From Acidocella sp. (GTDB lineage: Bacteria > Pseudomonadota > Alphaproteobacteria > Acetobacterales > Acetobacteraceae), in the NCBI GenBank assembly GCA_026224875.1, contig JAMFRU010000040.1:1-51289 (forward strand): DNA of 51,289 nt, given 5' to 3'. This document shows positions 4,790-31,099 of this stretch, in pieces. Made by a program: the position numbers and the translations under genes. The stretch's first letter is position 1. Every line of letters starts with the position of its first letter. A model generated the notes under the pieces. That model did not search any database and was not told the DNA's origin. It was given only the letters and a program-made list of their open reading frames with translations.

Positions 4790-5533
4790 CTAACCCGGTA
4801 CTTTTAACCCGGCCCAGAGCGGGCTGAGCAGCGGATTAAACCCCGCCCCCCCGGCTGGCGGCAAACGCGACTGCCGGAAGATGTAATTTTCCAGCGCCCG
4901 CCCGATATCGGGTGGTGCGACAAGCGCCGGCGCGGCCTCAGCCCCCGTGAACTGGCCGTCCCCCGCCTGCACCGCCACCGCATCACGTACACCGCCCTGC
5001 CGGAGCAACGCCGGCGCCTCCGCTGCCCAAGGCCTCGCAGGATAAAGTGCGCCCCCATCAACCGTGCCACCACCTGGCGGCGCGAAAGGTGAGCCGGCCT
5101 GGGCCGCGCCACCGCCCGGCGGCGGCGCAAACGACAATCCAGCCAACACCGTACCCCGCGCCGGCAAATGCAGCCCTGCCGCATCAGCCTCCCGCCGCGC
5201 CCGCCCGGTCGCAGCCTCATGCCGCGCCTGCGCCAAAACCGCCCGGTAGGATGTGTCTGCTCCGCCGCTCCCCTGCCGCACAGCCAGCGCCCCGGCATCA
5301 TTCGGCACACCGTGCCCGGCCGCCGCAAAACCAGCCTCACCCACGGGCCCCACAACCTTAACCTGCTGCCCCGCAGGGCGGCCAGCTGCCCCAGCGATGG
5401 GCGCAAACCCACCCAACCCCGGCCGGCCGGCCGCCATGGCAATGCCGTAAAGCCCCATTCCCCGCATAGCAGTGCTCCCAGCCATTCCCGCCGCGTTCAG
5501 CGCCTTACGAAACGCGCTCATCATCTCCGACAC
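4790..5533 (-). CDS. Unknown Gly/Ala/Pro-rich protein at the element's distal end
   Basis: A 247-residue protein I do not recognise. It is low in complexity, dominated by Gly, Ala and Pro, with runs such as APPPGGGAAQAG and FAPPGGGTVDGG. The C-terminus is more ordered (IGRALENYIFRQSRLPPAGG). The start is uncertain: GTG 5533, ATG 5524 and ATG 5521 are all possible, and GGAG directly abuts the second. As the last gene of the late transcript it could be a phage accessory or host-interaction protein, but nothing in the sequence shows that. The frame is long and open for a GC-rich region, where chance frames are common, so even its reality is not certain. From 5534 to 5660 nothing is seen. Confidence 0.45.
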   Translation of the reverse strand: MSEMMSAFRKALNAAGMAGSTAMRGMGLYGIAMAAGRPGLGGFAPIAGAAGRPAGQQVKVVGPVGEAGFAAAGHGVPNDAGALAVRQGSGGADTSYRAVLAQARHEAATGRARREADAAGLHLPARGTVLAGLSFAPPPGGGAAQAGSPFAPPGGGTVDGGALYPARPWAAEAPALLRQGGVRDAVAVQAGDGQFTGAEAAPALVAPPDIGRALENYIFRQSRLPPAGGAGFNPLLSPLWAGLKVPG

Positions 5534-5660
5534 CCCGCATCCCCGATCCCCGCATTCGCTGCTAACTCATCGTAATCATGGCCCGCAGAGTAATGGTGCC
5601 CCAGCAACGACACGCAAGCACGACTATCAATATGGCCCGGCTCATCACCGGGCCACACGA

Positions 5661-5972
5661 TCAGAGCCCGAAAATACCCTTCAAATCCGCCAGCACAGTC
5701 TGCAACAGCCCCAAACTTGCCTGCGCCTTGGCCGCATCCTGCACCGGCAAACTTGCCAGCACCGGTGCCGCCACAGTCGCCAACGTATCTGCCGCCGCCG
5801 AAACAGTCGTCAGCGCATCAGCATGGGCCGACTGGCTCGCCGCCACCGAATTCACCACCGCCTCGCCAACCTGCAACCCAGCCGCCACGGCAGCACCTAC
5901 CGGTCCACCAATCGCAGCACCAACACCAGCAGCCACATTCAAAACATTCTCAACCTGCGTTGTCTCACTCAT
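5661..5972 (-). CDS. Small hydrophobic protein of the lysis region, holin candidate
   Basis: A 103-residue protein with an Ala/Gly/Val-rich hydrophobic stretch near residues 10-45 (VAAGVGAAIGGPVGAAVAAG) and a weaker one near 65-80. Charged residues are few. It follows the muramidase and another membrane protein in one tight run, a place where phages keep holins. I do not recognise the family. The frame opens at 5984, but ATG 5972 follows GGAG at six bases and is chosen. It could equally be a small membrane-associated morphogenesis protein. Confidence 0.6.
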   Translation of the reverse strand: MSETTQVENVLNVAAGVGAAIGGPVGAAVAAGLQVGEAVVNSVAASQSAHADALTTVSAAADTLATVAAPVLASLPVQDAAKAQASLGLLQTVLADLKGIFGL

Positions 5973-5992
5973 CACAATCTCCATCGTTACAA

Positions 5993-6295
5993 TTAAGGAG
6001 CCGCCGGCACCGTGCCAGCCACCAACCCCTCCACATCCGCCACCACAGCCCCAACCGCGGCGGAATTTCCCGTCTTCAACAACACCGAAACATCGCCAAT
6101 CGCCTTCTCGAGCTGCGCCACCGTCACGCAGTTATCCGGCTGAAGAATTTTGATCAGCCCCAGCACCAACCCAAGAAGATCGATCGAGGAAACCGCCTGG
6201 CGCAGCAAGAAATACTGCAACCCAGCCGTCACGACCGTCCCAAGCCATATCGCCAGCCCCGTCCTGTTCTCCGGCGATTGAAAAAACCGCTCCAT
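5993..6295 (-). CDS. Small membrane protein next to the endolysin
   Basis: A 100-residue protein starting MERFFQSPENRTG. One clear hydrophobic segment follows near residues 13-50 (LAIWLGTVVTAGLQYFLL, then LLGLVLGLIKIL, perhaps two passes). The Ala/Val-rich C-terminus is soluble. The frame extends upstream into the muramidase gene, but ATG 6295 follows GAGGG at six bases and starts nine bases after the muramidase stop, so it is chosen. Position and topology suggest a holin or antiholin; no family was recognised. Confidence 0.65.
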   Translation of the reverse strand: MERFFQSPENRTGLAIWLGTVVTAGLQYFLLRQAVSSIDLLGLVLGLIKILQPDNCVTVAQLEKAIGDVSVLLKTGNSAAVGAVVADVEGLVAGTVPAAP

Positions 6296-6303
6296 TTTAT
6301 CCC

Positions 6304-6828
6304 TCACCGTAAAATCTCCCCCGCCAGCGCAATTACACGCCGGCTCCACCCCAACCCAAAATTTGGCCATGTCGGCAGCCGCGCATAAAAATCAATCCGC
6401 CGCGCCAGTATCTCCCGCGCCAACACCAGCGGGTCCGCCGCCCCCGCGGCCTCAAGCGTTTTGCTTCCCAAAACACCATCCGCCGTTTGGTTTAAAGCCT
6501 GCTGCAACCAAACAACGGCCCGCCGCAACCCGGCATTCACCGCCCCGTCAAACAACACCAGCCCCACCGGTAATTTCAGCGCATCGCCCTGCAAGGGCGC
6601 ATAGTAATCCCGGCGGTAAATATCTTCCGCATCCTGTTCAGATATGTTTTCAATATCCAGCCCCGGATATGCCGCAGCACTTATTCCGTATTTGGTCCCC
6701 CGCAACACACCATGCCCCACAACACCCCCTGTCCAATTCCCGGGATCAGTTGCGTTATTCGTAAACCCGCCTTCCTCACTCAACGTAAAAGCAAAGCACC
6801 GCGCAAAATTATCCACTAAATTACCCAT
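6304..6828 (-). CDS. Phage endolysin, GH108-type N-acetylmuramidase
   Basis: A 174-residue peptidoglycan hydrolase that should cleave the glycan backbone to release particles. The N-terminal half carries the GH108 signature: the catalytic Glu lies in SEEGGFTNN (residues 17-25), followed by DPGNWTGG and RGTKYGIS. The C-terminal half (QALNQTADGVLGSKTLEA, then RRIDFYARL) is the usual peptidoglycan-binding domain of this family. No signal peptide is visible, so it should need a holin. Its start overlaps the preceding coiled-coil gene by eight bases, and two small membrane proteins follow. Confidence 0.9.
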   Translation of the reverse strand: MGNLVDNFARCFAFTLSEEGGFTNNATDPGNWTGGVVGHGVLRGTKYGISAAAYPGLDIENISEQDAEDIYRRDYYAPLQGDALKLPVGLVLFDGAVNAGLRRAVVWLQQALNQTADGVLGSKTLEAAGAADPLVLAREILARRIDFYARLPTWPNFGLGWSRRVIALAGEILR

Positions 6829-7147
6829 GAAACAGACTCGCCCCCAATCCGCCGCATGCCGCCGACAGCACGCTGATCAACATCACGCTCATCCGCCGTT
6901 CCGCATCCCGCTCACCCCGGATGCGCGACAAATCCTCCCGCACATCCCCCAACCCCGCCACCAGTTCATCAACCTTCGCAAAGAGCTTGTTGATAACCTG
7001 ATCTTCTTGCGCCAGATAACGCACCCGCCACGCCTCTATTGAATCCGATTTCGTCTCTAAAATCCCAACATCCTGCCGTATCGCCGTAACATCGTTACGG
7101 AGCCCTGCAATATCATTACGTAGCAGGGAAATAGTTTCTGTCTCCAT
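6821..7147 (-). CDS. Coiled-coil protein with C-terminal membrane anchor
   Basis: A 108-residue protein. Residues 1-85 are charged and heptad-like (ISLLRNDIAGLRNDVTAIR onward), predicting a long coiled coil. The last ~20 residues are hydrophobic (SVMLISVLSAACGGLGASLF), making a tail anchor. This layout resembles XhlA-type holin accessory proteins and some spanin-like proteins. It overlaps the muramidase start by eight bases, so translation is coupled. Family assignment is by architecture only. Confidence 0.65.
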   Translation of the reverse strand: METETISLLRNDIAGLRNDVTAIRQDVGILETKSDSIEAWRVRYLAQEDQVINKLFAKVDELVAGLGDVREDLSRIRGERDAERRMSVMLISVLSAACGGLGASLFHG

Positions 7148-7156: not shown

Positions 7157-9301
7157 TCAAGCAGCAATATCGGATAAAACGATCGGGTATGCCGTGGCCT
7201 GCAGCGGAAAACTCAAATTCCAGGCCGCACCAAGATCCCCGCCAATATTCCAATTAGCCGGCGGCGTCAGAACCGCGAGATTATCCGTCACCGCATCACC
7301 CCGCCCAATCTGCGTGCTGCCATACGGATAAAAGAACAACGCCTCGGCAGAAGGGCTCGCGATCGGCTGGCTCAACGTTACAGCAATATGCGTTGCATCT
7401 ACCCGCGTCGCCGCAGCCGCCGTAATCATTACCCCAGGCGCCGCGACCGACCCGCCATCCATCACCGCAAACCCGGCACCGTTCTCCGCCTGCAACGGCA
7501 CCAGCAAATCATTCCCCGCATCATGAGCAATCGTCAGAACCAGATTTGTGTCAGAAGCCCGATAAACATGTACAATCCGCGGACCACCCTTCATCGGCAA
7601 TCCACTTCCCGGCAACTGCACCGCCGCTATCGTGTCGGACAGCCCCATCGCAACAGCCGCCTGCCCCGCGGCATGCACGCCTATCCTGCCATATCGCAAC
7701 AAATCCGGTTCGTCCCGATGCGCCGGATCCCCCCCGCTGAACAATCCCGTCGTCGGATCATACGAGGCGTTCAACGGATTCGAATCCGCCGTCTGCGCTG
7801 CAAAAACAACAATGTTATTCGCCTCCACGGCAGCCAAATCCGCAATCGATTCCCGCACCATCTGCACGCCATCATCGGTCTCGTAGGGGATCGCGTTCCA
7901 GGCCAGCAAAGGCAGCTGCGCCGCACTCCGCCCCAACAACGCCCGCGTCATCGCAAGCAGTTGCAATACCGTCGCCTTATACAAATTCTTGTTCGCATAA
8001 GGCATGGTGCTGTCCTGTTCCGACCACGGCCAGATCAGAAACGCGATATCCGCCTTATCAACCGCGCTCACCAGTGCCGCACTACCCGTCAGATACGCCG
8101 TCAACGCCGCAAAATCCGGCCCGACACTCCAGGTCGACGGATCAGACCCATCGCCAGGATTCGTCAAAAACGTGCCCTCACCCACCCCCGGCGGAAACAG
8201 CGGCGGCGACGAATTCGAAATAGGATGACCAGAAACCACAGAGTACCGGTCGGGCGAAATATCGCTCCCCGAAATGGAAGCCGTAAACCCATAGGCCACA
8301 GCACCTAAATACCAGGCAATGCCCTGCGCCAGCGCCAGCGGCCCTCCGGCATTGATAAACCAAGCCGCATTGGACTGCCCCATCACAAGCAGGTTCACGC
8401 CCCGGCGCGTACCCAGCACCCATCGCGCCTGTGCCGCAATCAGCACCTGCACCTCAACCGAATTCAGCGCTTTCTCCCACGCCGCCGCTTCATGAAACCA
8501 GCACTGCGCCGAGCCTTGAAACGAACCATCGTGCAAAAGCAGCACCGGCGCATTCGCGCTCGCCGGCAGCGGATTGGCTACGGCTACAGCCACCTGCACG
8601 CCATCCAGCCACACATCCACGCCCACACCCGGCGTATTGCGCAATATCACCGCATGGCTATGCCGCCGCGCCAAACCACCCGACAGCACAACCTGCCCCC
8701 CCGCGCCCGGAAACAGCGTCAAATTGCTGCCTTCCGCGCTATCCGCCTGCAAAATCGTAGTACCCGATCCTGCGGTCGTATGGATCAACGGAATCGGCTC
8801 ATTATTGGCGGAATACGCCCCCTGCCGCCAATTCGGCCGCGTCCAAACAAAATACCGCGTCCACGCCGCCCCCGCGCCAAACTCCAGCCCCGGATGCGTC
8901 AGGCCCCAATCAGCATCCAGGCTCGGTCCATAATTAACAATCGCCGCATCAGGCGCCCCAACCGCGCCCAAATACCCGTTCACACGCGGCACCGCGAGGG
9001 TCACCACCGGCACCGTATCAAAAACAACATGATACGGTACCAGATTCTGCCCCTGCCCAGACTTGTCCAGCACGGCGCCCACAATGTCATTCACCACCGC
9101 AACGGGCGCACCGCTCGCATCCAGCAGCCCAGACAGCAGCCCCGCATCCCACCAGCCCGAAAGCCCGCTGATATCCGAAGGATACGGCCCCGCGAACAAA
9201 CCAACCGGCGGCGCACTCCCAGCCGGCAACGGCCCCGTCAGCACGCGTTTATTCAAGCTCGCCAACACGGGCGAACCAGGCATATTAAATAATATCGCCA
9301 T
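7157..9301 (-). CDS. Large tail protein with an SGNH/sialate-esterase-like domain
   Basis: A 714-residue virion protein. Residues ~40-290 look like a lectin-type beta-sandwich (ISGLSGWWDAG near the start). Then comes a hydrolase-like domain: LLVMGQSNAAW near residue 303 supplies the block-I Ser of the CE6/sialate O-acetylesterase type, and GGDPAHRDEPDLLRYGRIG near residue 528 has the D-x-x-H of the last block. The rest is beta-rich. Such proteins de-acetylate surface polysaccharide during adsorption. Seen: both motifs in correct order. Inferred: activity and placement on the tail. It sits between a fibre gene and the lysis cassette. Confidence 0.7.
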   Translation of the reverse strand: MAILFNMPGSPVLASLNKRVLTGPLPAGSAPPVGLFAGPYPSDISGLSGWWDAGLLSGLLDASGAPVAVVNDIVGAVLDKSGQGQNLVPYHVVFDTVPVVTLAVPRVNGYLGAVGAPDAAIVNYGPSLDADWGLTHPGLEFGAGAAWTRYFVWTRPNWRQGAYSANNEPIPLIHTTAGSGTTILQADSAEGSNLTLFPGAGGQVVLSGGLARRHSHAVILRNTPGVGVDVWLDGVQVAVAVANPLPASANAPVLLLHDGSFQGSAQCWFHEAAAWEKALNSVEVQVLIAAQARWVLGTRRGVNLLVMGQSNAAWFINAGGPLALAQGIAWYLGAVAYGFTASISGSDISPDRYSVVSGHPISNSSPPLFPPGVGEGTFLTNPGDGSDPSTWSVGPDFAALTAYLTGSAALVSAVDKADIAFLIWPWSEQDSTMPYANKNLYKATVLQLLAMTRALLGRSAAQLPLLAWNAIPYETDDGVQMVRESIADLAAVEANNIVVFAAQTADSNPLNASYDPTTGLFSGGDPAHRDEPDLLRYGRIGVHAAGQAAVAMGLSDTIAAVQLPGSGLPMKGGPRIVHVYRASDTNLVLTIAHDAGNDLLVPLQAENGAGFAVMDGGSVAAPGVMITAAAATRVDATHIAVTLSQPIASPSAEALFFYPYGSTQIGRGDAVTDNLAVLTPPANWNIGGDLGAAWNLSFPLQATAYPIVLSDIAA

Positions 9302-9305
9302 CGCT

Positions 9306-11465
9306 TCAGGTCACCGTTAACGTGAAGCTGCTTACCGCAGTGTTAGTGCCCGCAGTACTCTGTACCCACACATAATAATTCCCCGCAACGGCCGGAATGG
9401 TCTGGAACACCGCCCATAGCGCATTAGAGTCGAAAACCAATGCCGCCTCCCAGCCCGTGCTGGGCACCACAGCATTCGAGGTCGAGAGCGCGACCTGCGT
9501 CGGCACATTCTGTGCCGGCGTTACCGAGCCATTCAGCGGAATGGTATCGACAGTATCTCCATGCACATAACTTCCGCCTGGATTATTAAATCCATAGACC
9601 AGCGCCGGTGCCGCAGCCACGGTAATGGCGGAGGACACAGTCGTAGCACCGGTACCCGAATCCTGCGCCCACGCATAATAAGTCCCACCCGCCGCAGGCG
9701 TCAGAGCTGCCGTGTAACTCCCGCCACTATTGGTTGCCACAATCCAACCACTCGTCGGCACCACAGTATTCTGCACGGAGAGTTGGACATTAACATTATC
9801 CGCCATCGGGCTCACCGTCCCGCTAACGGTCAGCACCGTCCCAGCCACACCGCTAGAAGGTGCGGTCACGCTCAACGAAGCCAATACCACCGACACCGCC
9901 GCGGACACCGCATTCACAACCGTATTCCCCACCTGCTCCGCCCAAATATAAACCGTTCCAGCCGCGGCCGGCGTCAGGCTGCCGGTCCACGCCCCAGCGC
10001 TCGTCACCGCATTTACCCAAACCACAGGTGCCACCGTCGCACTGGCCGAAAGCCCAATCTGCACCGCCGTATTACCAGGCGACACAGCACCGCTAACTGC
10101 AATGGCACTCCCCAGCGTTGCCGTACCCGGCAGGCTCAACATGCTAATCGAAGGCGGTGCCACGGTGAAATTGTTAGAAACACCCAACACCGCAACATTA
10201 TTCTGGTCCCGTACACGCATCGAATATGTCCCGGCTGTCAGCCCCGGCACCGTGAAACTATACGCATTTTCGGTAATCACCGGGCTTGCCGCCACTGCCC
10301 AAGTCGAACCGCCATCAACCGAATAATCCAGAGCCGTCGGCGCATCATTAAAAATACCCCCCGACACAACAAACATTGTGCTCAAACCCGGCGGCACAAT
10401 CGAGGCGATGGTAATCGTCGGCGCATTCGGCACCACCCCGCTCCACCACACCAGAGACCCACCAGAATAACGCAACCCCAGCAACGTCGTCGATGCACCC
10501 GGCGGCAGGCTGGTGCTCCCAGAGCCAGACGTAATACCCGTTCCCATCGTCACAGGCCCAGGCGCAAGATTAACCAAAGTGCAGGAAAACCCCGGTCCCA
10601 TATTGGTAAAATTCGCCGTCAGCGTAACCGGCACGCTCGCCACCAAAAACCGGCCATTATGCTCCGTCGAATCCAGCACGGTATTCGCCGTCAGCTCAAC
10701 AACGGAGGACTGCACGCTCGGCAATTTGTTCTGAAGATACCCCCAGATCGCACTGAAACTCTGCACACTCAGCGTATTGCCGCTTTGCGCCACCAGCAGC
10801 TCATCACTATCCCCCGCCGGCCCCGCCGCGGGCAATTCATCAATCGTCTGCCCACCCAAAAACTGCCCATAGGGCATCCACGCCAGTGCCCCGTTCTGCC
10901 AAAGCGCGACATAATCGGAATCACCAACCGAGCTCGCCGAATTTCCCGCCGCAGGCCCCGCCAGCCCGTCGCCAGCCGGGCCCGTGGCACCAGCAGGACC
11001 CACAGGCCCCGCCGCCCCCACAGGCCCCTGCGGCCCGGCAGCCCCCGCCACAGACGACGCCGTGACGCTGATCACACCATTCTCGATGGCAAGCCCGCTG
11101 CCCGCCGTGAAAAGCCCCCACAACGCCTGCACAGGCAGCAAACCCGGCGCCCCATCAGCGCTGATCACAATATCATCGGAGAGCGCCAGAGACGCCTGCA
11201 CCGGGAACCCCGCATGGTCGGCACCCGTCGCCGCCAGCGCGCCCGCTCTTAACGCCAGCCCGGTGCCAACCACCACAGCTTCCGGCGCCCCAGCCCCTAT
11301 GCTATTTCGTCCCAGCAGATCGCCCGTGGCTATATTGATCCCCGGCTGCAAATCAGCCGTCAGTTGCGACACAGTAACCGAATACAGCAATCCTGCCTGT
11401 GATAAAGGCAGCAGATCACCCGCACCAACGGAGGCCGCCGGCGGTAATTGCGCGATGGTTGTCAT
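9306..11465 (-). CDS. Tail fibre with collagen-like and Ig-like repeats
   Basis: A 719-residue fibre. The first ~60 residues (TTIAQLPPAASVGAGDLLPL) match the start of the next spike protein and probably attach it to the baseplate. A Gly-x-y collagen-like run occupies about residues 140-165. The C-terminal half has at least three repeats of about 90 residues. Each repeat contains a V-x-G-x-V-x-P strand start and a G-T-x-Y-x-W-A-Q/V-Q strand near its end (TVYIWAEQ, TYYAWAQD, NYYVWVQS), as in bacterial Ig-like adhesin domains. It probably binds the cell surface. Four bases separate it from the esterase-like gene. Confidence 0.8.
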   Translation of the reverse strand: MTTIAQLPPAASVGAGDLLPLSQAGLLYSVTVSQLTADLQPGINIATGDLLGRNSIGAGAPEAVVVGTGLALRAGALAATGADHAGFPVQASLALSDDIVISADGAPGLLPVQALWGLFTAGSGLAIENGVISVTASSVAGAAGPQGPVGAAGPVGPAGATGPAGDGLAGPAAGNSASSVGDSDYVALWQNGALAWMPYGQFLGGQTIDELPAAGPAGDSDELLVAQSGNTLSVQSFSAIWGYLQNKLPSVQSSVVELTANTVLDSTEHNGRFLVASVPVTLTANFTNMGPGFSCTLVNLAPGPVTMGTGITSGSGSTSLPPGASTTLLGLRYSGGSLVWWSGVVPNAPTITIASIVPPGLSTMFVVSGGIFNDAPTALDYSVDGGSTWAVAASPVITENAYSFTVPGLTAGTYSMRVRDQNNVAVLGVSNNFTVAPPSISMLSLPGTATLGSAIAVSGAVSPGNTAVQIGLSASATVAPVVWVNAVTSAGAWTGSLTPAAAGTVYIWAEQVGNTVVNAVSAAVSVVLASLSVTAPSSGVAGTVLTVSGTVSPMADNVNVQLSVQNTVVPTSGWIVATNSGGSYTAALTPAAGGTYYAWAQDSGTGATTVSSAITVAAAPALVYGFNNPGGSYVHGDTVDTIPLNGSVTPAQNVPTQVALSTSNAVVPSTGWEAALVFDSNALWAVFQTIPAVAGNYYVWVQSTAGTNTAVSSFTLTVT

Positions 11466-14080: not shown

Positions 14081-14563
14081 TCAAATCGTCGTGAGCGGGG
14101 TTCCCGTCGGGTCCGTCAGCGCCTGGCCCAGCGATGTCTGCAATGCATTCACCGGCGCCGGCACGAAAGAGAGTGCCACCACGGGCAAAGCGATGCTGCG
14201 TACCAATGTACGCCCGCCCGCCGTGGTAACATTAATCGTAACGGTATAGGTCGTCAGCGCCTGCCCGTTGCTCAGCCACAGCACCGCCCTCGCCCCATCC
14301 GCGGCTGCGGACACCAAAGTGAGATCCCCCGGATTATCCGGGCTTATCATCACATCCAAGGTGCTGATCCCGTCACCAGGATTAGCGGTCAGCGCCGGCG
14401 TCAAATCGAACACATAGTCCAGCGTATCGCCAGGGTCCTTTGCCGGCCACACCAACGCTTGCGGCGGCGGTATCTGCGGCCCGCGCGGCGTGGGCACGAA
14501 ACCGTCAATCTGCAAATACCGCGCGTTGGACGGTAACCATAAATGGTTCGCAGGAATTGTCAT
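14081..14563 (-). CDS. Small fibre-associated protein, function unknown
   Basis: A 160-residue protein starting MTIPANHLWLPSNARYLQIDG. It has an Ig-like beta pattern (LDYVFDLTPALTANPGDGIS, then YTVTINVTTAGGRTLVRSI), with no catalytic motif. The frame opens earlier at 14674 inside the Gly-rich fibre, but ATG 14563 follows the strong GAGGAGGGGG and is the real start. It lies between two fibre genes, so a fibre connector or chaperone is plausible. No family was recognised. Confidence 0.65.
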   Translation of the reverse strand: MTIPANHLWLPSNARYLQIDGFVPTPRGPQIPPPQALVWPAKDPGDTLDYVFDLTPALTANPGDGISTLDVMISPDNPGDLTLVSAAADGARAVLWLSNGQALTTYTVTINVTTAGGRTLVRSIALPVVALSFVPAPVNALQTSLGQALTDPTGTPLTTI

Positions 14564-14573
14564 CGCCCCCTCC

Positions 14574-23010: not shown

Positions 23011-23841
23011 TCAACTCTGAAAATTGCCAAGCGTAACGTCATTTGCGGCGATAACCGTCGTGCCAAACAGCATCGCCGGCGTTATCTGTGCCAGTGCCGT
23101 CGGATACTCGACCGCATAGATCAAATCCCTTCGGTATAAATCAGCATCGGCGCCACCATCGCTGGCTGTCACACCAGCAAACCGCACCCGCCCATATGTT
23201 CCATCCGCCAACGGCATAAAATTCAAATCCGTCAGCGCCAGATCAATCACCGGTGCCACCGCATCCCGCGTCGCCGGATCGGGACACCACATCGATATTT
23301 TGAAATCCTGCACCTGCCGCCTGATCTCTTGCAGCGCGCCAGCACCTGCTACAACACGCGCCGTAAATCGGTCCGCCCCCGGCACAGCCAACGTACTTCC
23401 GGCATAATCCACAATCCGGCCGGAATTTCGTATCAACGCCGCCAAGTTACTGGCAATGGTAGCCGGGCTATCCGTCGCCTGCACAGCGTAGGGAAAAGTC
23501 TCGTCATTCACCATAACCCCCGCCAGCTGCCCTACCGCGCAATTGCCGGAAAAAAATGCCGAAACCCCGTTCACCGCCACACTCAACAATGCCGTAACCG
23601 GCGCCACCTCACGCCACACTCGGGGGAACCGCGTCACATCCCGCACCTCACCCCCAGCAGGTGCCACCGAAACATGCACAATCCCCGCCGCCAAATCCGC
23701 ATCGAGCACGGGCGAAGCCGGGTACCCCCGGTAAACCCGGTAAACCACCCCCGTCACACTCACCGCCGCCGTGCCATTCGGGTACAACGCATTGGCCGCG
23801 AGTGCCGCCAAAGCCGTCTCAACATCCGCCTGATCCGCCAT
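23011..23841 (-). CDS. Head-tail or tail completion protein, family unrecognised
   Basis: A 276-residue protein between a 214-residue unknown and the sheath. Start ATG 23841 overlaps the upstream TGA (TGATG), preferred over 23874. The N-terminus is helical (ADQADVETALAALAANALYP), then beta-rich segments follow (YRVYRGYPASPVLDADLAAG; EVAPVTALLSVAVNGVSAFF). QDFKISMWCPDPATRDAVAP and a late LYRRDLIYAVEYPT suggest a tail-terminator-like fold. Its position between capsid and sheath supports a neck or completion role, by inference. Confidence 0.6.
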   Translation of the reverse strand: MADQADVETALAALAANALYPNGTAAVSVTGVVYRVYRGYPASPVLDADLAAGIVHVSVAPAGGEVRDVTRFPRVWREVAPVTALLSVAVNGVSAFFSGNCAVGQLAGVMVNDETFPYAVQATDSPATIASNLAALIRNSGRIVDYAGSTLAVPGADRFTARVVAGAGALQEIRRQVQDFKISMWCPDPATRDAVAPVIDLALTDLNFMPLADGTYGRVRFAGVTASDGGADADLYRRDLIYAVEYPTALAQITPAMLFGTTVIAANDVTLGNFQS

Positions 23842-24485
23842 CAGCTCACCGCCTGTACTAACGAGAACCGCCACACCGCATTCAGCGTCTCCACCGCGGT
23901 CACCAAAAACTTTTGCCCATGCTCATCGAGCACCACATCAGCAACCTGCGGCGTTACCCCAGCCACAACCGGCAGCATCGCCATAAACCCCGGAACCTTC
24001 GTGTCATCCGGCAGCCCCACCTTGGTCCGGTCGCCAACCCCGCCCACCAGCAAGCTCGCCGGAAATTTCGACAACAAAATCGTTTCCGTTCCCCGCGTAA
24101 TCGCCCCATACTGGTTCAACCCCGCCAGCACCGGCACCGCGGGCCGCAGCAAATCCACCACCGCATTCGTCATCACCACCAGCATCGGTTTGGGCGGCTC
24201 AATCGCCGCCACAAACGCCACGCCCTCCGGCCCCGCCAGATAATCGCCCGCGCGTAAATAACCCCAATCCGCCCAGGCCTGCCGAAACGGCACACCAAAC
24301 CCCGCCGGCGCCCCCACATTCCCCCCGGGCAACACAAACGCCACGCAAAGCCGCAAAAAACGCCTGGAAAGATCCAAAGGCTGCACCGGCCCATCAACCC
24401 GGTACGCATCGTGCAAAAACCCCGCCCGCCGCGCCGCGCACCCAGCCCCATAGGCCAGGCGATCCGCCAGTTTCACCCCATCCAT
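23841..24485 (-). CDS. Neck-region protein, unrecognised
   Basis: A 214-residue protein starting MDGVKLADRLAYGAGCAARR. It has hydrophobic beta strands (VAFVAAIEPPKPMLVVMTN) and a C-terminal domain ending FLVTAVETLNAVWRFSLVQA. The last pattern resembles small phage proteins that join head and tail, but I do not recognise a family. Translation is coupled to the next gene by TGATG and the upstream neighbour ends one base away. Confidence 0.6.
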   Translation of the reverse strand: MDGVKLADRLAYGAGCAARRAGFLHDAYRVDGPVQPLDLSRRFLRLCVAFVLPGGNVGAPAGFGVPFRQAWADWGYLRAGDYLAGPEGVAFVAAIEPPKPMLVVMTNAVVDLLRPAVPVLAGLNQYGAITRGTETILLSKFPASLLVGGVGDRTKVGLPDDTKVPGFMAMLPVVAGVTPQVADVVLDEHGQKFLVTAVETLNAVWRFSLVQAVS

Positions 24486-24486: not shown

Positions 24487-24882
24487 TCACACCACCAGCC
24501 GCACGCCGGCCTGGCTCAGGCCCGGCCCCGGCGGCACACCCAAAAACCCGCACAGCCGCCGGCGCCAATTATCAAACAAATTGGTCCGGTCCCGCAGTTC
24601 ATCGGCATTATGCGTCCACGCCGCGGCACTCTCCGTATCCAAATTATCGGATGTCCCCGGTATCGCCGCCTCAATCGTTGCCAGTGTCGAAATATACTGC
24701 AACACCACCGCCGTTTCCGCCGGCGCCAGATTATTCAACCTGAATTCCAGCGTCCCATAGGCCTGGAAAAACCGCCACGAGCTGAGCCCCGCATCCCCCG
24801 CGCCGTAAGCCGGATATCCGCAAAACCTGCGAATATCCGCCTTCTGCGCATCGGTGAACAATACTGCCACAGTATCGGACAT
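24487..24882 (-). CDS. Probable head-tail connector
   Basis: A 131-residue mostly helical protein: TDAQKADIRRFCGYPAYGAG, then FRLNNLAPAETAVVLQYIST and ELRDRTNLFDNWRRRLCGFL. Size, helicity and place (two genes after the major capsid protein) fit gp6/gp15-type adaptor proteins that extend the portal ring. This is a structural guess. It follows the small capsid-side protein by two bases. Confidence 0.6.
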   Translation of the reverse strand: MSDTVAVLFTDAQKADIRRFCGYPAYGAGDAGLSSWRFFQAYGTLEFRLNNLAPAETAVVLQYISTLATIEAAIPGTSDNLDTESAAAWTHNADELRDRTNLFDNWRRRLCGFLGVPPGPGLSQAGVRLVV

Positions 24883-24884: not shown

Positions 24885-25193
24885 CTAATAGGTATCCCCA
24901 TCACCCAAAGTGAAGTAAACGGTTCCGGTACCAGAACTTAATACCACAGCCGCATTGCTCACAAACGGCCCACCATCCACCAGCATCCGCGCGCCCGCGG
25001 GCACCGGCGTATCGCTCACCGCAGCACTCAAACCAGAGGCGCCACCAAGGCGAAAGAACGCGGTCGTGGCCGCGGCATTATAAATCAACACCGCCCCCCC
25101 GCCACCATTCAACGCCACATTTGTTACGGTCGTAGAAGCCGCCGCGGCCGCCGTTCCGGCCGGCCGGAACGGCTGATTAGCACCAGTGGACAT
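24885..25193 (-). CDS. Small virion protein after capsid, decoration candidate
   Basis: A 102-residue Ala/Gly/Thr-rich protein with beta character (TTVTNVALNGGGGAVLIYNA, then VVLSSGTGTVYFTLGDG). It starts 13 bases after the major capsid gene with a strong AGGGGGAG ribosome site. The position suits a head decoration protein or head fibre. No motif proves this. Confidence 0.6.
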   Translation of the reverse strand: MSTGANQPFRPAGTAAAAASTTVTNVALNGGGGAVLIYNAAATTAFFRLGGASGLSAAVSDTPVPAGARMLVDGGPFVSNAAVVLSSGTGTVYFTLGDGDTY

Positions 25194-25205: not shown

Positions 25206-26528
25206 TTAACCAACATGCTCGATCAACACCGCGCGCTTGTAATTCGCATTGGTCGCGGTCGGCACAGTACTCGCTGTGGTGGTAGTGTCGGAGGGCGCAC
25301 AAAACCCGCCAATCCAATACCAGCTCTGCGCAATAATCTGCTGCAGCCGGTCAATCGGCTCGCGCGTCACCATCGCCACGCCATCGATCACGTTCACTAG
25401 GCTATCCTTGGGCGCCACATCATCAGCAGCCATGCCGGCAAAATCGCCTTCAATCAGCGCACCCTGCCCGCACACAATCGGCCGGCGCACATAAAGCCCG
25501 GTAATGCTCGGATGGTTCTGCACATAAGCCTCGGTCGTCGTAATAAACCGCAGCCCCAAGAAATCACTCACCATACCCTGGCGGAACACCGGATTAGCCG
25601 AAGAACTACCCTGAAACAATTGCTTGAAATCAGCATCGGAAAACAACTGACGCGCCGAAACCGGATCGAGATAGCAATTATATAGCCCCTCCACCAGCGG
25701 CACCGCATTGCGCCGCAACAGCGCCACGGCATCCAGCAGATTACTCATGGTCAGCTGATCGGTGGCCTGCAGCCCAGCCGTGGTGCTGCGCTGCGCCGGC
25801 CGCACAATCGAACTCGCCGTCGCCGCTTTCACAGGGTTACCAGCCGTCCCGTCTGATACAGAAACATTTCCGGAAAATAGCAGCTGCCCGGAAACACCAT
25901 TCGGCGCGGTCGAAACATTGATCGGATCCGGCGTCACACCCACAACGTTATAAACATCAGCCCCCACCGTCACCGTCAGCGGCGCGCCGCCGGAAACACT
26001 CTGCTGCACACCATTCACAAACACCGTCTGGAACCCGCGCAGATCATCCACAAACACAGCTGGCCCAGCCGAAGACAACGTGGTCAGCACACGCGTATTC
26101 CCACCAAAATACGGCGCAAACAGCGCATTGCGCGCTAGCTCATCCAGGCTGCGCGCCGCCTGCTCGCCATTAATCGCAGCATTCTGCAAAAACTGCGAGG
26201 CAATGCCAACACGGCTGGTGACCATATTTAGGTCCTGCGTGGCAGCATAAAAATTCAGCGAAATCGTATACTGCTCCACACCCCAGTTGCCAGGCGTCAA
26301 ACCATTATCCAAGTTCGTATTGGTCGAAGCCGAAAGCGGCGTGGTGATGCTCGGCTTCAACCCAGCCCGGGTCTTGGTCAGCGTCTCACCAATACCAACC
26401 GAAAACTCCTCCCGGTCGGCTACAAGCCGGTAACCCAGCCTGGACTTCAGCGCGGTCTCAAACTCGCGCTCCAAAAATCCTTGTTGAATAATCGGCTGCA
26501 ATGCAGCCGGGAAATTCTGAATACCCAT
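25206..26528 (-). CDS. Major capsid protein
   Basis: A 440-residue protein with the make-up of a capsid subunit: a charged helical start (LEREFETALKSRLGYRLVAD), the segment NNL-type beta region with VEQYTISLNFYAATQDLNMV, an insertion with YNVVGVTPDPINVS, and a C-terminal half with LYNCYLDPVSARQLFSDADF, FLGLRFITTTEAYVQNH and GQGALIEGDFAGMAADDV. The latter are characteristic of phage capsid proteins with the HK97 fold. No protease gene precedes it, so maturation by cleavage is unlikely. It follows the scaffold and portal genes. Confidence 0.88.
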   Translation of the reverse strand: MGIQNFPAALQPIIQQGFLEREFETALKSRLGYRLVADREEFSVGIGETLTKTRAGLKPSITTPLSASTNTNLDNGLTPGNWGVEQYTISLNFYAATQDLNMVTSRVGIASQFLQNAAINGEQAARSLDELARNALFAPYFGGNTRVLTTLSSAGPAVFVDDLRGFQTVFVNGVQQSVSGGAPLTVTVGADVYNVVGVTPDPINVSTAPNGVSGQLLFSGNVSVSDGTAGNPVKAATASSIVRPAQRSTTAGLQATDQLTMSNLLDAVALLRRNAVPLVEGLYNCYLDPVSARQLFSDADFKQLFQGSSSANPVFRQGMVSDFLGLRFITTTEAYVQNHPSITGLYVRRPIVCGQGALIEGDFAGMAADDVAPKDSLVNVIDGVAMVTREPIDRLQQIIAQSWYWIGGFCAPSDTTTTASTVPTATNANYKRAVLIEHVG

Positions 26529-26615: not shown

Positions 26616-27014
26616 CTAACGGCGGCGGAGCAGTGCCGCTCTGGCCTGCACCCATTCCTCATGGCTCAACTCATTGGCATGGCGCGTCCGCGGCGGCTCC
26701 GGCCGCGGCGGATTAGCCGCGGCGGAGGAAGAAACCCCGCCCCCAAACAACCAAGGCTTGGCCTTCTTCAACCGCCCCAGCAGCGCACCCGCATCCTGCA
26801 CCTCACCGGCCTCATTCACCCGCACCTCACCGGCATCGATCAGCTTCAACCCATCAAGGTCGATCATCCCGGCCTTCACAGCCTCGGCCTTCAACTCTGC
26901 ATGGATCAATTTCGCCCCAGCCTCCGCCTGCAACCGGCTCAACGCCGCCTCAGCCAGTTCAGCCCGCTCAGCCCGGGCCTGCCAATTCTCTGTATTGTTG
27001 AATTCATCAGTCAT
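26616..27014 (-). CDS. Capsid scaffolding protein
   Basis: A 132-residue acidic protein. Residues 8-50 are a helix or coiled coil rich in Ala/Glu (RAERAELAEAALSRLQAEAG), then come AVKAGMIDLDGLKLIDAGEV and a disordered Pro/Arg C-terminus with HANELSHEEWVQARAALL. This is the normal layout of phage scaffolds encoded between portal and capsid. Its ATG overlaps the portal stop. The internal scaffold is expected to leave or be degraded after assembly. Confidence 0.85.
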   Translation of the reverse strand: MTDEFNNTENWQARAERAELAEAALSRLQAEAGAKLIHAELKAEAVKAGMIDLDGLKLIDAGEVRVNEAGEVQDAGALLGRLKKAKPWLFGGGVSSSAAANPPRPEPPRTRHANELSHEEWVQARAALLRRR

Positions 27015-28396
27015 GGTGCATCCTGGTCAATCGCATTCAACTCCGCCGCCACGTCCACAATCCCATTCGAGGCCGCAACGGTTTTTACCCCCGTCTCTTT
27101 CGAAATCTGTCCGGCATTCACCAGCGTGGCCACCGCCTGCGCCTCCTTCAACCGGTCATCGGCCGAAAGCGGGTACCAGCGCGGCCAGCGCAACCGCACA
27201 CGCTGCGTCACATCCAACGCCCCCACACGCTCGCCATTCACCACCAGCGGAAACAGCTGCGACGCGCGCATCACCATTTTCACCAGCGTCAAAATTCCGC
27301 CATCGCCATAAGAGATCCGCAAATTATCCGCGAGCCAGATCAGCCCCTGGTTCATCAACTCCAACGCCCGCCCGCTTTGCGCCGTCGTCAAACGGTCCGC
27401 ACTCGCCCGGTTGCCATGCACACTCTCCAGCGCAAATTCCCGCAGCGTCCGCACATAAGAAATCACGGCTTCGGCCGCCGTCCCGCCAATTTCCAGCAAC
27501 TTGGCATCACCTTTTTCAGAGACCACAAGCGCATTCCCCGCGCCCTTCACAATCTCCGTATCGCTGGTCGCAGGCTCCTTAATCAGCAGCGTCGGATCAG
27601 AGCTATATTTCAACCCCCGCCCCGCCTGGCTCAACTGATAATCAATCTCAATATTTGTATCGATCGCGGTCCTGAACGTACACCCGCCATCAACGCCCCC
27701 GCCGCCCGGCAGATTTTTAATCCACACCACCGGCACAAATCCCAGCCCATGCACAACGCTGCGGCTCTCATCGCGTACCGGCTGATCATCATCATTCCAC
27801 GGCAAATACCAGATCTCACTATCGGCATCCCAAACCCGCTGAAACCAATATAATGCCGCCGGATCAACATCCGCATAGCCCTGCGCCAGCAAATCAGCGC
27901 CGCTCACCCTGTATTTCTCAGTCACACTCGCCAGCGTATCCGGTGCATCAACCCGCCACACCGGCGTCAAATACAAGCTCTCCAGCACCGAGAAAAACAC
28001 CCGCCCCTGCAACACCCTGAACAATATCGCAACCGACCCCACAGCACCCCGCAGTGCCGCATCGATCATCACCTCGTTCAACCGCGCCTCGGCAATCACA
28101 TCCTGCAACACCCGCACCAGCCCGGCATCTTCCGCATCCAACGCCGGAAAATGCCCAGCACTGAACAGCAGCGCCACCGAATCCTCCACAACAATCCGGC
28201 ACAGCCCATACCGCACGGAAGGCCGGCGCAGCCGCAGCGGAATATACTCCCCGGCCCCATTGCGCTCCTCATGGAATTGATACGGTAAATTATCGTAAAG
28301 CGTGCCATCCAGCACCCGCCGCAACACATCCAGCCTCGCCACCCGCGCCGGCAAATTCATATCGGCCGGGATCGTGGCGCAAATCGTCTCGAACAT
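27011..28396 (-). CDS. Portal protein (SPP1 gp6-like)
   Basis: A 461-residue portal which forms the twelve-fold DNA channel of the head. Recognisable segments include LPYQFHEERNGAGEYIPLRL, VRYGLCRIVVEDSVALLF, SLYLTPVWRVDAPDTLA, a long central stem region around YQLSQAGRGLKYSSDPTLLI and SADRLTTAQSGRALELMNQG near residue 345. It lies 16 bases after the terminase stop, as in most tailed phages. The length is typical. Confidence 0.88.
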   Translation of the reverse strand: MFETICATIPADMNLPARVARLDVLRRVLDGTLYDNLPYQFHEERNGAGEYIPLRLRRPSVRYGLCRIVVEDSVALLFSAGHFPALDAEDAGLVRVLQDVIAEARLNEVMIDAALRGAVGSVAILFRVLQGRVFFSVLESLYLTPVWRVDAPDTLASVTEKYRVSGADLLAQGYADVDPAALYWFQRVWDADSEIWYLPWNDDDQPVRDESRSVVHGLGFVPVVWIKNLPGGGGVDGGCTFRTAIDTNIEIDYQLSQAGRGLKYSSDPTLLIKEPATSDTEIVKGAGNALVVSEKGDAKLLEIGGTAAEAVISYVRTLREFALESVHGNRASADRLTTAQSGRALELMNQGLIWLADNLRISYGDGGILTLVKMVMRASQLFPLVVNGERVGALDVTQRVRLRWPRWYPLSADDRLKEAQAVATLVNAGQISKETGVKTVAASNGIVDVAAELNAIDQDAP

Positions 28397-28412: not shown

Positions 28413-29768
28413 TCAGCGGCTTAAAAAAGACATATTCAACCGCCGCGCCGGCTGTGCCGTACAACCCGCCAGCGTATTCACCGCGCGCGAAAGCGCATCC
28501 ACCTGGTCATCCTTCATACTGTGCGGAAACGCCTTCAACTCCGCCAGCAACGCATCATTCCAAGGTGCCACCACCAACGCCACGCTCCCCGCATCCATTT
28601 GGGTCGCCGCCGGCATCGCCCGCACCACCTTGGCCTCCCGCTCCGGAGACGAAACAATCTTATACCCCGCCAACCCCCGGCTCAGCATCGCAATCTGCGC
28701 CACCCCGGCCTGGCCCGGGTCCTGCGGCAACGCCACAATCACCCCAGTTCCATCCTTCCGCGCCGTCTCCTGTATCCGTGCTTCAACCTGTCCCGGCGTG
28801 CCCTGGAATCGCACCACATCCAGCACCACCATCACATTATCCGCCGTAACACCCAGCTTCAGCCCCACGGTATAATCCGGACGCCGCCCCGCCGCCGGCA
28901 GGCTCGCCGCCAAATCCCAACCCCGCACGCAATGGCGCACAGCCGGCGCCTCGGGCAAAATCTGCACCCGCTCCGTCCTGAACAAAGCCGCATCCGGCGG
29001 CCGCGGCGCCTGCTGATACATCGCCGCAAACGCCCGCTCGCCCACTTCAAGCCGCCGCCGCGCCACCGCCGCCGCATCCTGCCATTCCGGCCACAGCACC
29101 TCACCAGGCGGCCGCCCCAGAGCATCGCCCGCCTCGGCCACCGCCGGCAGCCGCAAACACTCCCACCCGGCCTCAGCACCGTGCAACCGGCCCGCCAGAT
29201 CATCCTCATGCCAACGCGTCATAATCAGCACGACCCGCCCGCCAGGCTTCAACCGCGCCGAAAGCTCACCCCGGTACCAATCATACAAAGCATCCCGGGC
29301 CACCTGGCTCTCAGCGTCAGCCCAGGATTTAACCGGATCATCGATTAGGATGAGATCCGCCCGCCGCCCGGTAATCGGCCCTCGCACCCCTGTTGCAAAA
29401 TACTCAGCGCCGCCCTCAAGTGTAAACCGCGAAGCCGCCTTGCTCTCCTTGGCAATCCCCATGCCCAGCAAACCGGCATGGCCTTCAACCACCCGCCGCA
29501 CCCCCAGCCCAAAATACCCTGCCAGAGACGCCGTATGCGCCACCGCAATCACCTGGGCCTTGTCACTGCGCGCCATAAACCAGGCCGGAAACAGTACAGA
29601 CCCATAGGTCGATTTCGCCGAACCCGGCGGCATCTGCACCATCAACCGGTCGCAGCGCCCATCCGCCACATCCTGCAACCGGCTGATCAGATATTCATGA
29701 TGCCCCGCCGGTTTCAGATTTCTCTCCGCCATCACCTGGCGGGAAAACTCTAAAAACCCGTTAGCCAT
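28413..29768 (-). CDS. Terminase large subunit
   Basis: A 451-residue ATP-driven packaging motor and nuclease. The Walker A box is MPPGSAKST (residues ~46-54) and the Walker B is RRADLILIDDP (~135-145), followed by VVLIMTRWHEDDLAGRL for coupling. The nuclease domain starts at CVRGWDLAASLPAAG (~285) with the metal-binding Asp, and ends with HDQ-like KDDQVDALSRAVN. ATG 29768 is used rather than TTG 29771. No separate small terminase is obvious; one of the two HTH proteins upstream may serve. Confidence 0.93.
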   Translation of the reverse strand: MANGFLEFSRQVMAERNLKPAGHHEYLISRLQDVADGRCDRLMVQMPPGSAKSTYGSVLFPAWFMARSDKAQVIAVAHTASLAGYFGLGVRRVVEGHAGLLGMGIAKESKAASRFTLEGGAEYFATGVRGPITGRRADLILIDDPVKSWADAESQVARDALYDWYRGELSARLKPGGRVVLIMTRWHEDDLAGRLHGAEAGWECLRLPAVAEAGDALGRPPGEVLWPEWQDAAAVARRRLEVGERAFAAMYQQAPRPPDAALFRTERVQILPEAPAVRHCVRGWDLAASLPAAGRRPDYTVGLKLGVTADNVMVVLDVVRFQGTPGQVEARIQETARKDGTGVIVALPQDPGQAGVAQIAMLSRGLAGYKIVSSPEREAKVVRAMPAATQMDAGSVALVVAPWNDALLAELKAFPHSMKDDQVDALSRAVNTLAGCTAQPARRLNMSFLSR

Positions 29769-29819
29769 CAATCTTTAAACAACCCTGTCTCTGCCGGGGA
29801 AAGAACCAGCATGACAAGA

Positions 29820-29882: not shown

Positions 29883-30377
29883 TCAACCGGCACCCAGCGC
29901 CTGTAACAGCAGCTCCACCGCCTGCCCATGCCAGCGCTGTACAGACTTATGGTCAGCCCCCAGCATCGTCCCAATCCGCCGCCACGGAAACAAATGCCGC
30001 AACGTCACCGGGTGCACGAGCGCCCGTGCCCCCACAATCCGGCGCATCACATATTTGGCCTCGGGTATTAATGTTAGCCAGCCAAACGCCTCATCCATCT
30101 GGTCTATTGCTGCGGCACTCGGCACCGGCGGCCGCACTGCAGCATTCTGCCAGCCATAGGCATCGGCAGCACTTTGCACCACGTCAAACCGCATCGTCCG
30201 TATCTGCGTCGAATATCCTTTTCCCGGCAGCGCCAGCAACGTCGCCCCCGCCGCCTCAAACCGCGCCACCATCTCCTCAACTGTCAGCCCCGGAACGGTC
30301 TTTATACTGACAATTGCAGTTTTGGCGCCCGAACCCAGTAATTCCCGGCCCCTGAATGCCCTAATACCTTCGTTCAT
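29883..30377 (-). CDS. DUF6362-like HTH protein, candidate late regulator
   Basis: A 164-residue protein of a family common in alphaproteobacterial prophages. The C-terminal half has MDEAFGWLTLIPEAKYVMRR, RALVHPVTLRHLFPWRRIG and MLGADHKSVQRWHGQAVELL; the last stretch reads as a helix-turn-helix. Its place just upstream of terminase is typical of late activators or small terminases. Which of these it is cannot be told here. It is translationally coupled (ATGA) to the gene before it. Confidence 0.65.
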   Translation of the reverse strand: MNEGIRAFRGRELLGSGAKTAIVSIKTVPGLTVEEMVARFEAAGATLLALPGKGYSTQIRTMRFDVVQSAADAYGWQNAAVRPPVPSAAAIDQMDEAFGWLTLIPEAKYVMRRIVGARALVHPVTLRHLFPWRRIGTMLGADHKSVQRWHGQAVELLLQALGAG

Positions 30378-30658
30378 TTTTCATCTCCTTTCGGATAGGG
30401 GTCACTACTTATCAATCCCCAGGTTAGCGCATGCCCCGCCGGCAAAGCCGCACGATGTGGATCTTCCAACATGTCATATCCCTTCACCACCACCGGTGCC
30501 CTCACCGGCGCTTGGGCCCGCAACCGCCGGCCCCGCTCAATCACCGTATTGCGCGACAACCCAAGCCGCAGCCCAATCGCCGCCCAGGTTTCACCCCCGC
30601 CCCGCATCTCACAGATCACTCTATCCGCCGCCCCCGTCCACTCCCGTGCCTGTGGCAT
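30374..30658 (-). CDS. Small HTH DNA-binding protein
   Basis: A 94-residue protein with a GcrA-like or Myb-like helix-turn-helix near residues 6-45: WTGAADRVICEMRGGGETWA then IGLRLGLSRNTVIERGRRLR. The C-terminus has PAGHALTWGLISSDPYP, a short motif often seen in such prophage proteins. The start ATG 30658 is fixed by a perfect AGGAGG (30669-30664) five bases upstream. It is the first gene under the repressor-controlled minus-strand promoter. Confidence 0.7.
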   Translation of the reverse strand: MPQAREWTGAADRVICEMRGGGETWAAIGLRLGLSRNTVIERGRRLRAQAPVRAPVVVKGYDMLEDPHRAALPAGHALTWGLISSDPYPKGDEK

Positions 30659-30680
30659 CCGCACCTCCTATGCTCACGCT

Positions 30681-30758
30681 CTAACGTTTACATAGTTAGA
30701 CATACTAACAATACATGTCAAGTAATACTAACATTGAGTTTGTCTCTCATCCTGTTAG
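30681..30758. promoter_or_regulatory. Repressor operator cluster and divergent promoters
   Basis: Five copies of the half-site CTAAC/GTTAG occur in 78 bases, at 30681-30685, 30695-30699, 30705-30709, 30728-30732 and 30754-30758. The middle pair forms the perfect palindrome GTTAG-ACATA-CTAAC (30695-30709). On the minus strand a perfect TTGACA (-35, 30721-30716) stands just before this palindrome, so a bound repressor would cover the lytic promoter. The outer half-sites flank the repressor's own start. Function is inferred. Confidence 0.7.
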
Positions 30759-30766
30759 AACAATCT

Positions 30767-31099
30767 ATGGCCGCAAAAAAACAGCCCCCAACAGAAACCG
30801 TCGGTGCCCGCATCCGCGCACTGCGTCTCGCTGCAAACATGACCCAGGATGAATTCGCCACGAAGCTGAACGTGTCACGTTCCGCCATCGCGCAATGGGA
30901 AACCGACCGCGCCGGCCAGATACGTGACAATATGGAGCGCATCGCGAAAGTGCTGAATACTTCGCTAGGCTATCTTGTCTCGGGCGAAACCGGCTCACTG
31001 CTCGGCGACGAGCTCGCCCTCATGCGCCTCTACCGCGCCTGCTCCCCCGAAGACCGCCGCATCCTAATATTAACCGCCCGCCGCCTCGCCCGCGGCTAG
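30767..31099 (+). CDS. XRE-family repressor of the phage-like element
   Basis: A 110-residue Cro/CI-type regulator. The helix-turn-helix spans about residues 12-66, with IRALRLAANMTQDEFATKLN, VSRSAIAQWETDRAGQ and MERIAKVLNTSLGYLVSG. There is no peptidase domain, so release would not be by RecA-stimulated self-cleavage. The C-terminus (LMRLYRACSPEDRRILILTA) is the usual dimerisation tail of short repressors. It is transcribed away from the structural genes, with clustered CTAAC sites between. Confidence 0.9.
   Translation: MAAKKQPPTETVGARIRALRLAANMTQDEFATKLNVSRSAIAQWETDRAGQIRDNMERIAKVLNTSLGYLVSGETGSLLGDELALMRLYRACSPEDRRILILTARRLARG

Follow-up and report, generated by a model that had tools for sequence, protein, structure and literature searches.

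The tail of the Rhodobacter capsulatus gene transfer agent (RcGTA) is non-contractile, and that of the phage-like particle PBSX is contractile. The accessible part of one classification paper describes RcGTA and its relatives, the Rhodogtaviriformidae, as a domesticated alphaproteobacterial head-tail cluster with mostly vertical inheritance, and it recognises three independently exapted groups of gene transfer agents (GTAs), with particle shapes given as non-contractile tails or no tails (PMC9662315). In Bacillus, according to the text available from a second source, PBSX is an element of about 33 kb that packs random 13-kb pieces of host DNA and has a bactericidal effect on related strains, and PBSX and Bp15.1PLP are chromosomally kept phage-like particles of about 30 kb (PMC8347963). 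Here we describe a gene cluster at positions 4790-31099 of a 51,289-nt stretch of DNA (the window) from Acidocella sp., an Acidocella-like member of the Acetobacteraceae whose closest named relatives are Acidocella (assembly GCA_026224875.1, contig JAMFRU010000040.1). The cluster is an unbroken run of phage genes, mostly on the minus strand, with a small-terminase candidate near one end, lysis genes towards the other and a divergent repressor gene (30767-31099), and it is bordered by recX on the left and a glycosyltransferase gene on the right. Taken together, our comparisons of sites, trees and selection indicate that it very probably encodes a domesticated particle, and the reading we favour, with moderate confidence, is an inherited domesticated contractile particle whose most likely use would be the delivery of chromosomal DNA to kin. 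What appears to be new is a predicted contractile phage-like particle cluster that is inherited with the chromosome in Acetobacteraceae; domesticated phage particles are already known as a kind.

Similar to RcGTA, this is an alphaproteobacterial head-tail cluster that is mostly vertically inherited, but it is not of the RcGTA type; the original prediction made from this sequence had already pointed out that the tail of the known alphaproteobacterial type is non-contractile. It carries a contractile sheath gene, and TIGR02217, which we take to be a marker of the RcGTA cluster, was over its cut-off in none of 22 genomes (one weak match, in G104); our use of this marker is supported by a control in which Caulobacter was the only one of 14 genomes to be positive. 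The Acetobacterales row in a 2019 table by Kogay reads 62, 34, 0, 34, 0 and 0 (PMC6821227), and we read its zeros as no RcGTA-like element, the column headings lying outside the accessible part of that paper. A contractile GTA in Acetobacteraceae was not reported in the literature searched, judged by title and the start of the abstract among the matches listed. In the accessible part of the classification paper a GTA is defined by a caudovirion-like particle, full endogenisation without mobility genes, mostly vertical inheritance with host co-diversification, the packing of mostly random host DNA, a head too small to hold its own genes, and the delivery of DNA to other cells (PMC9662315); our cluster has the gene content of such a particle, is endogenised without mobility genes (integrases being judged among the matches listed), and has been inherited mostly vertically along with its hosts. 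Its size and chromosomal retention are similar to those of PBSX and Bp15.1PLP, and its sheath gene corresponds to the contractile tail of PBSX. This likeness is one of description, drawn between a cluster known from its genes alone and a Bacillus particle for which random-DNA packing and killing are reported.

Among described phages, the closest capsids are those of the temperate Komagataeibacter phages phiKX1 and phiKX2 (LC644975, LC644976), which at 51% identity over the full query are the best of the three matching records among 50,697. PhiKX1 has a similar order of portal, capsid, sheath and baseplate genes, but its record is 53 kb long and includes its own integrase, an antirepressor and, where a tape measure would lie, a protein of 742 aa, whereas no integrase and no lysogeny or replication module of this kind was found in our cluster, which has a repressor only. 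The best phage match of the terminase large subunit is from Acetobacter phage phiAO1 (LC644971; 43% identity over 99% of the query), which is not among the three records with a capsid match, this comparison covering terminase and capsid only. Regions of this type have probably been seen before. In its accessible part, a peat-moss virome study aligns its 'DNA virus contigs 1-4' to regions of Acetobacteraceae genomes and calls them possibly degraded prophages (PMC12142844). The gene content given there resembles that of our cluster: genes for structure, packaging and lysis, a gpVWJ baseplate, and no excision or replication modules.

The capsid search covered 38 genomes of the genus, counting the window's own, and gave 26 matches and 12 genomes without a match. 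Besides the window's capsid, 22 align at 83-95% identity along 439 or more of the 440 residues, one more is a 95% fragment, and two divergent capsids (64% in G001 and 56% in G004; G numbers denote genomes, L numbers loci) lie on contigs separate from the flank genes. Searches with the flanks found cluster genes at contig ends in five genomes without a capsid match (G013, G020, G024, G030 and G031), and we rejected counting these as losses, the absences being assembly gaps. In all, the cluster is carried by 29 of the 38 genomes and is absent at the site in three (G001, G028 and G004); six could not be judged (G016, G017, G018, G023, G027 and G022), the contig of G023 terminating in recX and G022 retaining the repressor in a rearranged neighbourhood. 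The terminase has a single match in the source genome (3.87 Mb, 145 contigs). At the family scale 168 of 394 Acetobacteraceae genomes matched, with a close class of 92 genomes in 30 genera (67-100% identity where listed; membership was assigned by reading E-values off the family table) and weaker remaining matches (54-64% where listed). In an order-wide search every genome among the matches listed belonged to the Acetobacteraceae, which has no bearing on spread beyond the family.

The chromosomal site is similarly conserved within the genus. Repressors at least 80% identical mark 24 loci, of which 23 have room to judge (L013 is too short), and the glycosyltransferase gene adjoins the repressor in 21 of these 23. 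Given this neighbour and the 29 carrier genomes, the cluster is not a recent prophage. In ten full Acidocella regions all 24 counted genes are present (240/240 gene cells) and their order is equal by inspection; recX and rplT follow the cluster in seven of them, and two (G008, G015) stop at a contig end just past the endolysin gene, so that recX follows in seven of the eight regions that reach far enough. Ten regions of other genera hold 219 of 240 gene cells, largely colinear by inspection, at other chromosomal sites. Flanks are common to three genomes of one genus and to two of another, and the examined neighbours differ between genera, differences that are probably better explained by rearrangement of a resident cluster than by repeated insertion.

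No trace of mobility was found at the locus. A tRNA search found none, a search of Rfam gave no match, and the two cluster ends have no att-like repeat in common, their longest common word being 12 bp, a length equalled or exceeded in 32% of 185 random 1-kb pairs from the window. None of the scanned open reading frames (ORFs) received a name as an integrase, a transposase or a replication gene, bar a weak DNA-polymerase PHROG match (E 9e-4) inside fibre 2 that ranks under better fibre matches. The source genome has seven integrase-family genes, and the five among the matches listed sit on other contigs. In 11 cluster-bearing genomes no integrase lies within 25 kb of the cluster among the matches listed (E to ~2e-18), the nearest of these, in G094, lying at a distance of about 27 kb. 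These results bear out the original prediction, which had described an integrase-less element, free of transposase, replication gene and att-like repeat, with intact packaging, head, contractile tail, fibre, lysis and repressor genes and with both chromosomal flanks, recX and a glycosyltransferase, inside the window.

Phylogenetic comparison further suggests descent with the host. A tree of the head and tail proteins (terminase, portal, capsid, sheath, tube and scaffold; 2140 columns) was set against an rpoB tree (1395 columns) for 21 genomes of seven genera, leaving out G008 and G000, whose rpoB is fragmentary, and G029 and G110, in which rpoB was not found. The trees have 11 of 18 splits in common, where label shuffles gave at most three in 2000 draws, and the Mantel correlation of cluster with rpoB was 0.94 (slope 2.1; maximum 0.55 in 2000 permutations). 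Ratios of nonsynonymous to synonymous divergence (dN/dS) were obtained by the Nei-Gojobori method in four Acidocella pairs, for genes other than the tape-measure candidate and the small pair beside the endolysin gene; the G000/G026 pair gave no ratios beyond the hub, where the locus ends, its one partial match there (g14574) being false, and gpW gave none in G002/G009 because its dS was infinite. The measured cluster genes range from 0.02 to 0.31 (capsid 0.04-0.07, repressor 0.02-0.11, fibres 0.06-0.31) and the measured flank genes from 0.03 (rplT) to 0.42. Head, packaging, tail, fibre, endolysin and repressor genes are under purifying selection. Synonymous divergence of the cluster is mostly equal to or higher than that of the flanks, and near saturation in places.

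Three genomes without the cluster at the site allow a judgement on loss. In G001 an internal deletion has left a scar: what survives is the glycosyltransferase gene, the repressor (90%), a stretch weakly matching the first gene (37%) and, ahead of recX, the final 35 residues of the 4790-5533 protein. G028 retains rplT and a neighbouring scrap and then passes directly to mnmG, recX and the glycosyltransferase gene not being found at this site, and here too the absence is a deletion. G004 has a glycosyltransferase match of only 54-55%, situated on a different contig, and neither recX nor any cluster gene was found next to its rplT; here loss is indistinguishable from never having been present. 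Two of three judged absences are deletions, and a clean empty site has been demonstrated for none. The checks proposed with the original prediction, namely synteny, dN/dS, a tree that follows the host and a search for empty sites, all came out in favour of domestication, which is now strongly supported. The further part of that prediction, a gene transfer agent, is compatible with these data.

The mechanism we propose begins with a temperate contractile phage, whose domestication would date back to an ancestor that many genera of Acetobacteraceae share and which would since have been inherited with the chromosome. The repressor would keep the operon off; derepression in some cells would yield heads and short contractile tails, the terminase would fill the heads with chromosomal DNA, and the endolysin would lyse the cell. 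Delivery of this DNA to kin, as by a contractile-tailed GTA, is what we propose as the most likely use. Given a domesticated particle, whose likelihood rests mainly on trees, selection and synteny, we lean towards DNA delivery, and killing or another use retains a sizeable lesser share. On the fuller claim of a family-wide, vertically inherited contractile-tailed GTA in Acetobacteraceae, of a phage origin separate from the recognised GTA groups and held off by its own repressor, we consider the genomic evidence evenly poised. If true, such a lineage in a family seemingly without RcGTA would mean that phage particles can be domesticated repeatedly, whatever single tail type they started from not being decisive. 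There are carriers in culture (Acidocella aromatica, A. facilis and A. aquatica), and with the repressor switch they make the question of gene transfer versus killing directly testable. There is also a caution here for virome surveys, as 574 IMG/VR stretches encode relatives of this capsid protein, the best 80 of the 574 at 75-91% identity.

The main rival is a domesticated, DNA-filled killing particle similar to PBSX of Bacillus, which would pack random host DNA and kill competitors with no gene delivery. The packing and killing reported for PBSX in the accessible text (PMC8347963) give it a precedent, the contractile sheath and short tape-measure candidate suit it, and in sequence such a bacteriocin could look nearly the same. 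A weak argument in the other direction comes from the fibres, which are conserved (56-77% identity across Acidocella regions, dN/dS 0.06-0.31) to a degree not far short of their neighbours, whereas a kin weapon might be expected to turn over its fibres fast. We regard this rival as unlikely, though it deserves to be taken seriously. An active phage could show purifying selection too, but not in combination with the site, the trees and the missing mobility genes. A temperate phage that persists vertically and is still mobile, always re-entering one site, has integrase-bearing relatives such as phiKX1 in its favour; yet the sites differ between genera while the trees match rpoB, neither an integrase nor an att repeat was found as described above, and recent replacement would give a synonymous divergence lower than that of the flanks, so that we hold this reading to be very improbable.

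Slightly fainter still are the chances of a decaying prophage remnant, the reading offered for such regions in the accessible part of the peat-moss paper (PMC12142844), and one that the missing replication and excision genes would fit. Against decay stand the purifying selection, the conserved palindrome and frameshift site, and the small number of shortened frames (8 among the 459 homologous ones in 20 genomes). The contractile tail with its several fibres would fit a tailocin or an injection system that carries head genes as passengers, but the capsid dN/dS is among the lower values and portal and terminase are also constrained, and we give this reading a similarly slim chance. The decay, site-specific phage and tailocin readings were considered and rejected on these grounds.

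Several observations weigh against a domesticated, DNA-delivering particle. The cluster is absent at the site in three of the 38 genomes and unjudged in six, so it is dispensable. Two of the 23 loci (L024, L071) are without the usual right neighbour, and in G006 no recX follows in the 5.8 kb after the endolysin gene. Seven splits of each tree are unshared, though each of these involves a fork unstarred in at least one tree and no two starred forks are in conflict. Fibre 1 has a dN/dS of 0.31 in one pair, the portal frame of G187 is short, and the tape-measure candidate is poorly conserved and out of place in the window. A reversed control of the operator pattern occurs 0-2 times per genome, so the single operator copy reported below is near chance and weak evidence. 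Finally, if there is room for about 50 kb in the capsid, as might be suggested by the phiKX1 record of a relative, the cluster could package itself whole.

Genes were named from Pfam, PHROGs and NCBIfam profile searches, and all frames are open. On the left flank, recX (4170-4769, plus strand) matches NCBIfam RecX at E 2e-11, below the curated cut-off, and the right flank is the glycosyltransferase gene (31147-33711, minus strand; Pfam 1e-34). Within the cluster all genes up to the repressor are on the minus strand, and in their direction of reading the packaging and head genes come first. The first operon gene is HTH-like (helix-turn-helix; 30374-30664; weak AsnC-type HTH match, below cut-off), followed by a probable terminase small subunit named by position (29883-30377; Pfam DUF6362 3e-13, phrog_6836 1e-18), the terminase large subunit (28413-29771; PHROG 1e-90), the portal (27011-28396; PHROG 2e-15), the scaffold (26616-27014; Pfam 3e-7, below the curated cut-off) and the major capsid protein (25206-26528; PHROG 4e-35). 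The motif residues of the large terminase are intact, and ten ATPase and nuclease motif residues are identical across 25/25 genomes. The original prediction was right that a prohead protease is missing, but this is not telling as evidence because a scaffold gene is present. Capsid structure prediction for 21 sequences gave a mean predicted local distance difference test (pLDDT) score of 45, which is low confidence, and was not used.

Most of the connector and upper tail genes are named by position, their PHROG matches being of unknown function. These are a small head-associated protein (24885-25193; no family, conserved position), proteins of head-tail connector (24487-24882; phrog_14539 2e-40), neck (23841-24485; phrog_14605 5e-31) and neck or tail-completion type (23011-23874; phrog_13532 2e-62), the tail tube after the sheath (20863-21291; phrog_12993 1e-38), the tail assembly chaperone (20561-20866; phrog_20383 6e-17) and a tail or baseplate protein (19657-20352; phrog_21362 2e-38). 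Family matches support the contractile sheath (21309-22859; PHROG tail sheath 1e-45), the baseplate hub (18475-19506; PHROG tail protein 2e-19), the gpV spike (17930-18478; Pfam 1e-6), the gpW/gp25-like wedge (17553-17933; PHROG 4e-9) and gpJ (16420-17544; Pfam 1e-34), with a baseplate-associated protein placed by position after them (15840-16418; phrog_26379 4e-53, unknown function). The fibre genes comprise a fibre or fibre assembly protein (14574-15830; PHROG 2e-21), a gp77-type fibre-tail adaptor (14081-14674; Pfam 6e-24), a right-handed beta-helix tail spike (11509-14073; Pfam 8e-12), tail fibre 2 (9306-11465; PHROG tail fibre 4e-6) and, by position, tail fibre or spike 1 (7157-9301; no family, 60-77% identity in Acidocella regions).

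Lysis genes close the operon. A coiled-coil-like protein with a C-terminal membrane segment (6821-7147; conserved position) is probably lysis-associated, the GH108 endolysin (6304-6828) is supported by Pfam (6e-18) and PHROG endolysin (3e-40) matches, and a putative holin-like membrane protein (5993-6370) has a hydrophobic segment and similar ORFs in the same place in G003, G005 and G029. Next to these lies a small alanine-rich protein (107 aa; 5661-5984) with similar ORFs in Acidocella relatives and no family below E 0.1.

The last gene of the cluster (4790-5533) encodes a probable shortened tape-measure protein (247 aa) that has moved to the cluster end. Other genera, and G002, G006, G008 and G009 within Acidocella, have a protein of 244-456 aa between the chaperone and the 19657 gene, and the C-terminal part of the 4790-5533 protein matches the profile of those from other genera at E 1.4e-10. 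The same gap measures only 169-212 bp in the window, G003, G005, G011, G021 and G029, and in these the protein next to recX has a C-terminus that is similar. G006, G009, G002 and G025 form one rpoB clade with a common ancestral tape-measure place, and the candidate has been relocated within the resident cluster. Its name rests on position and on one phage protein that matches weakly at the N-terminus (E 0.03), the C-terminal profile giving no match to phage proteins (E 0.59 and 2.5). Proteins at the corresponding place have 742 residues in phiKX1 and 737 in a prophage copy (G162a), and by comparison the tail encoded here would probably be short.

Two features not named in the original prediction lie at 20564-20570, where there is a -1 frameshift site, and at 30695-30709, the place of a putative operator. 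A -1 frameshift in the tail chaperone is known from many tailed phages, and the slippery site here resembles it. The heptamer GGGAAAC (AAAAAAC in two genomes) lies near the end of the chaperone gene in 25/25 genomes, and in all 25 the -1 frame past it runs for 56-65 residues with a common motif (20400-20570 in the window). The HTH repressor (30767-31099, plus strand; Pfam HTH_3 2e-12; 83-96% identity in Acidocella-type loci) has 110 aa, its start being corrected from 30431 in the original prediction to near 30767; LexA-like self-cleavage is unlikely, because the protein is this short and Pfam names only HTH domains in it. Between repressor and operon, GTTA-N7-TAAC, a pattern picked after viewing the alignment, occurs in 14 of 15 Acidocella intergenes and in 0.35% of shuffles of the window's intergene; five of the 15 regions have one extra copy. 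The putative operator itself reads GTTAG-N5-CTAAC, and in eight genomes chosen from the ten whose site fits this strict palindrome it occurs once genome-wide in seven and twice in the eighth, with one copy per genome on the cluster contig, at the repressor-operon intergene by comparison. These counts show no wider regulon, not a striking uniqueness.

Four further genera (G248, G044, G162b and G060; L164-L165, L178-L179, L170-L171 and L162-L163) have, at one common site, a second contractile cluster that is related to ours but has a different terminase, with a recX match downstream in three of the four regions and no integrase near among the matches listed. It may be another domesticated cluster, arisen by parallel or sister domestication. 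The genome of G162b holds a further copy (G162a, L168-L169) that looks like an ordinary prophage, its tape-measure-like protein of 737 aa being accompanied by extra genes. As to location, the cluster of another genus (L026) lies near rplT and the G248, G044 and G162b regions near recX, in differing arrangements, and this proximity may mark the ancestral location. On one 81-kb contig (CAIYCW010000145.1) the cluster occurs twice in inverted orientation (L033 and L034), which is a genuine duplication or else a palindrome created in assembly. Inserts of 1-2 kb separate the small and large terminase genes in G006 and G008 (L128, L138) and encode similar, by eye outer-membrane-like, proteins of 270-277 aa, and inserts of about 3 kb between portal and scaffold in G021 and G015 (L132, L134) contain three similar ORFs, one of which is by eye SGNH-type hydrolase-like.

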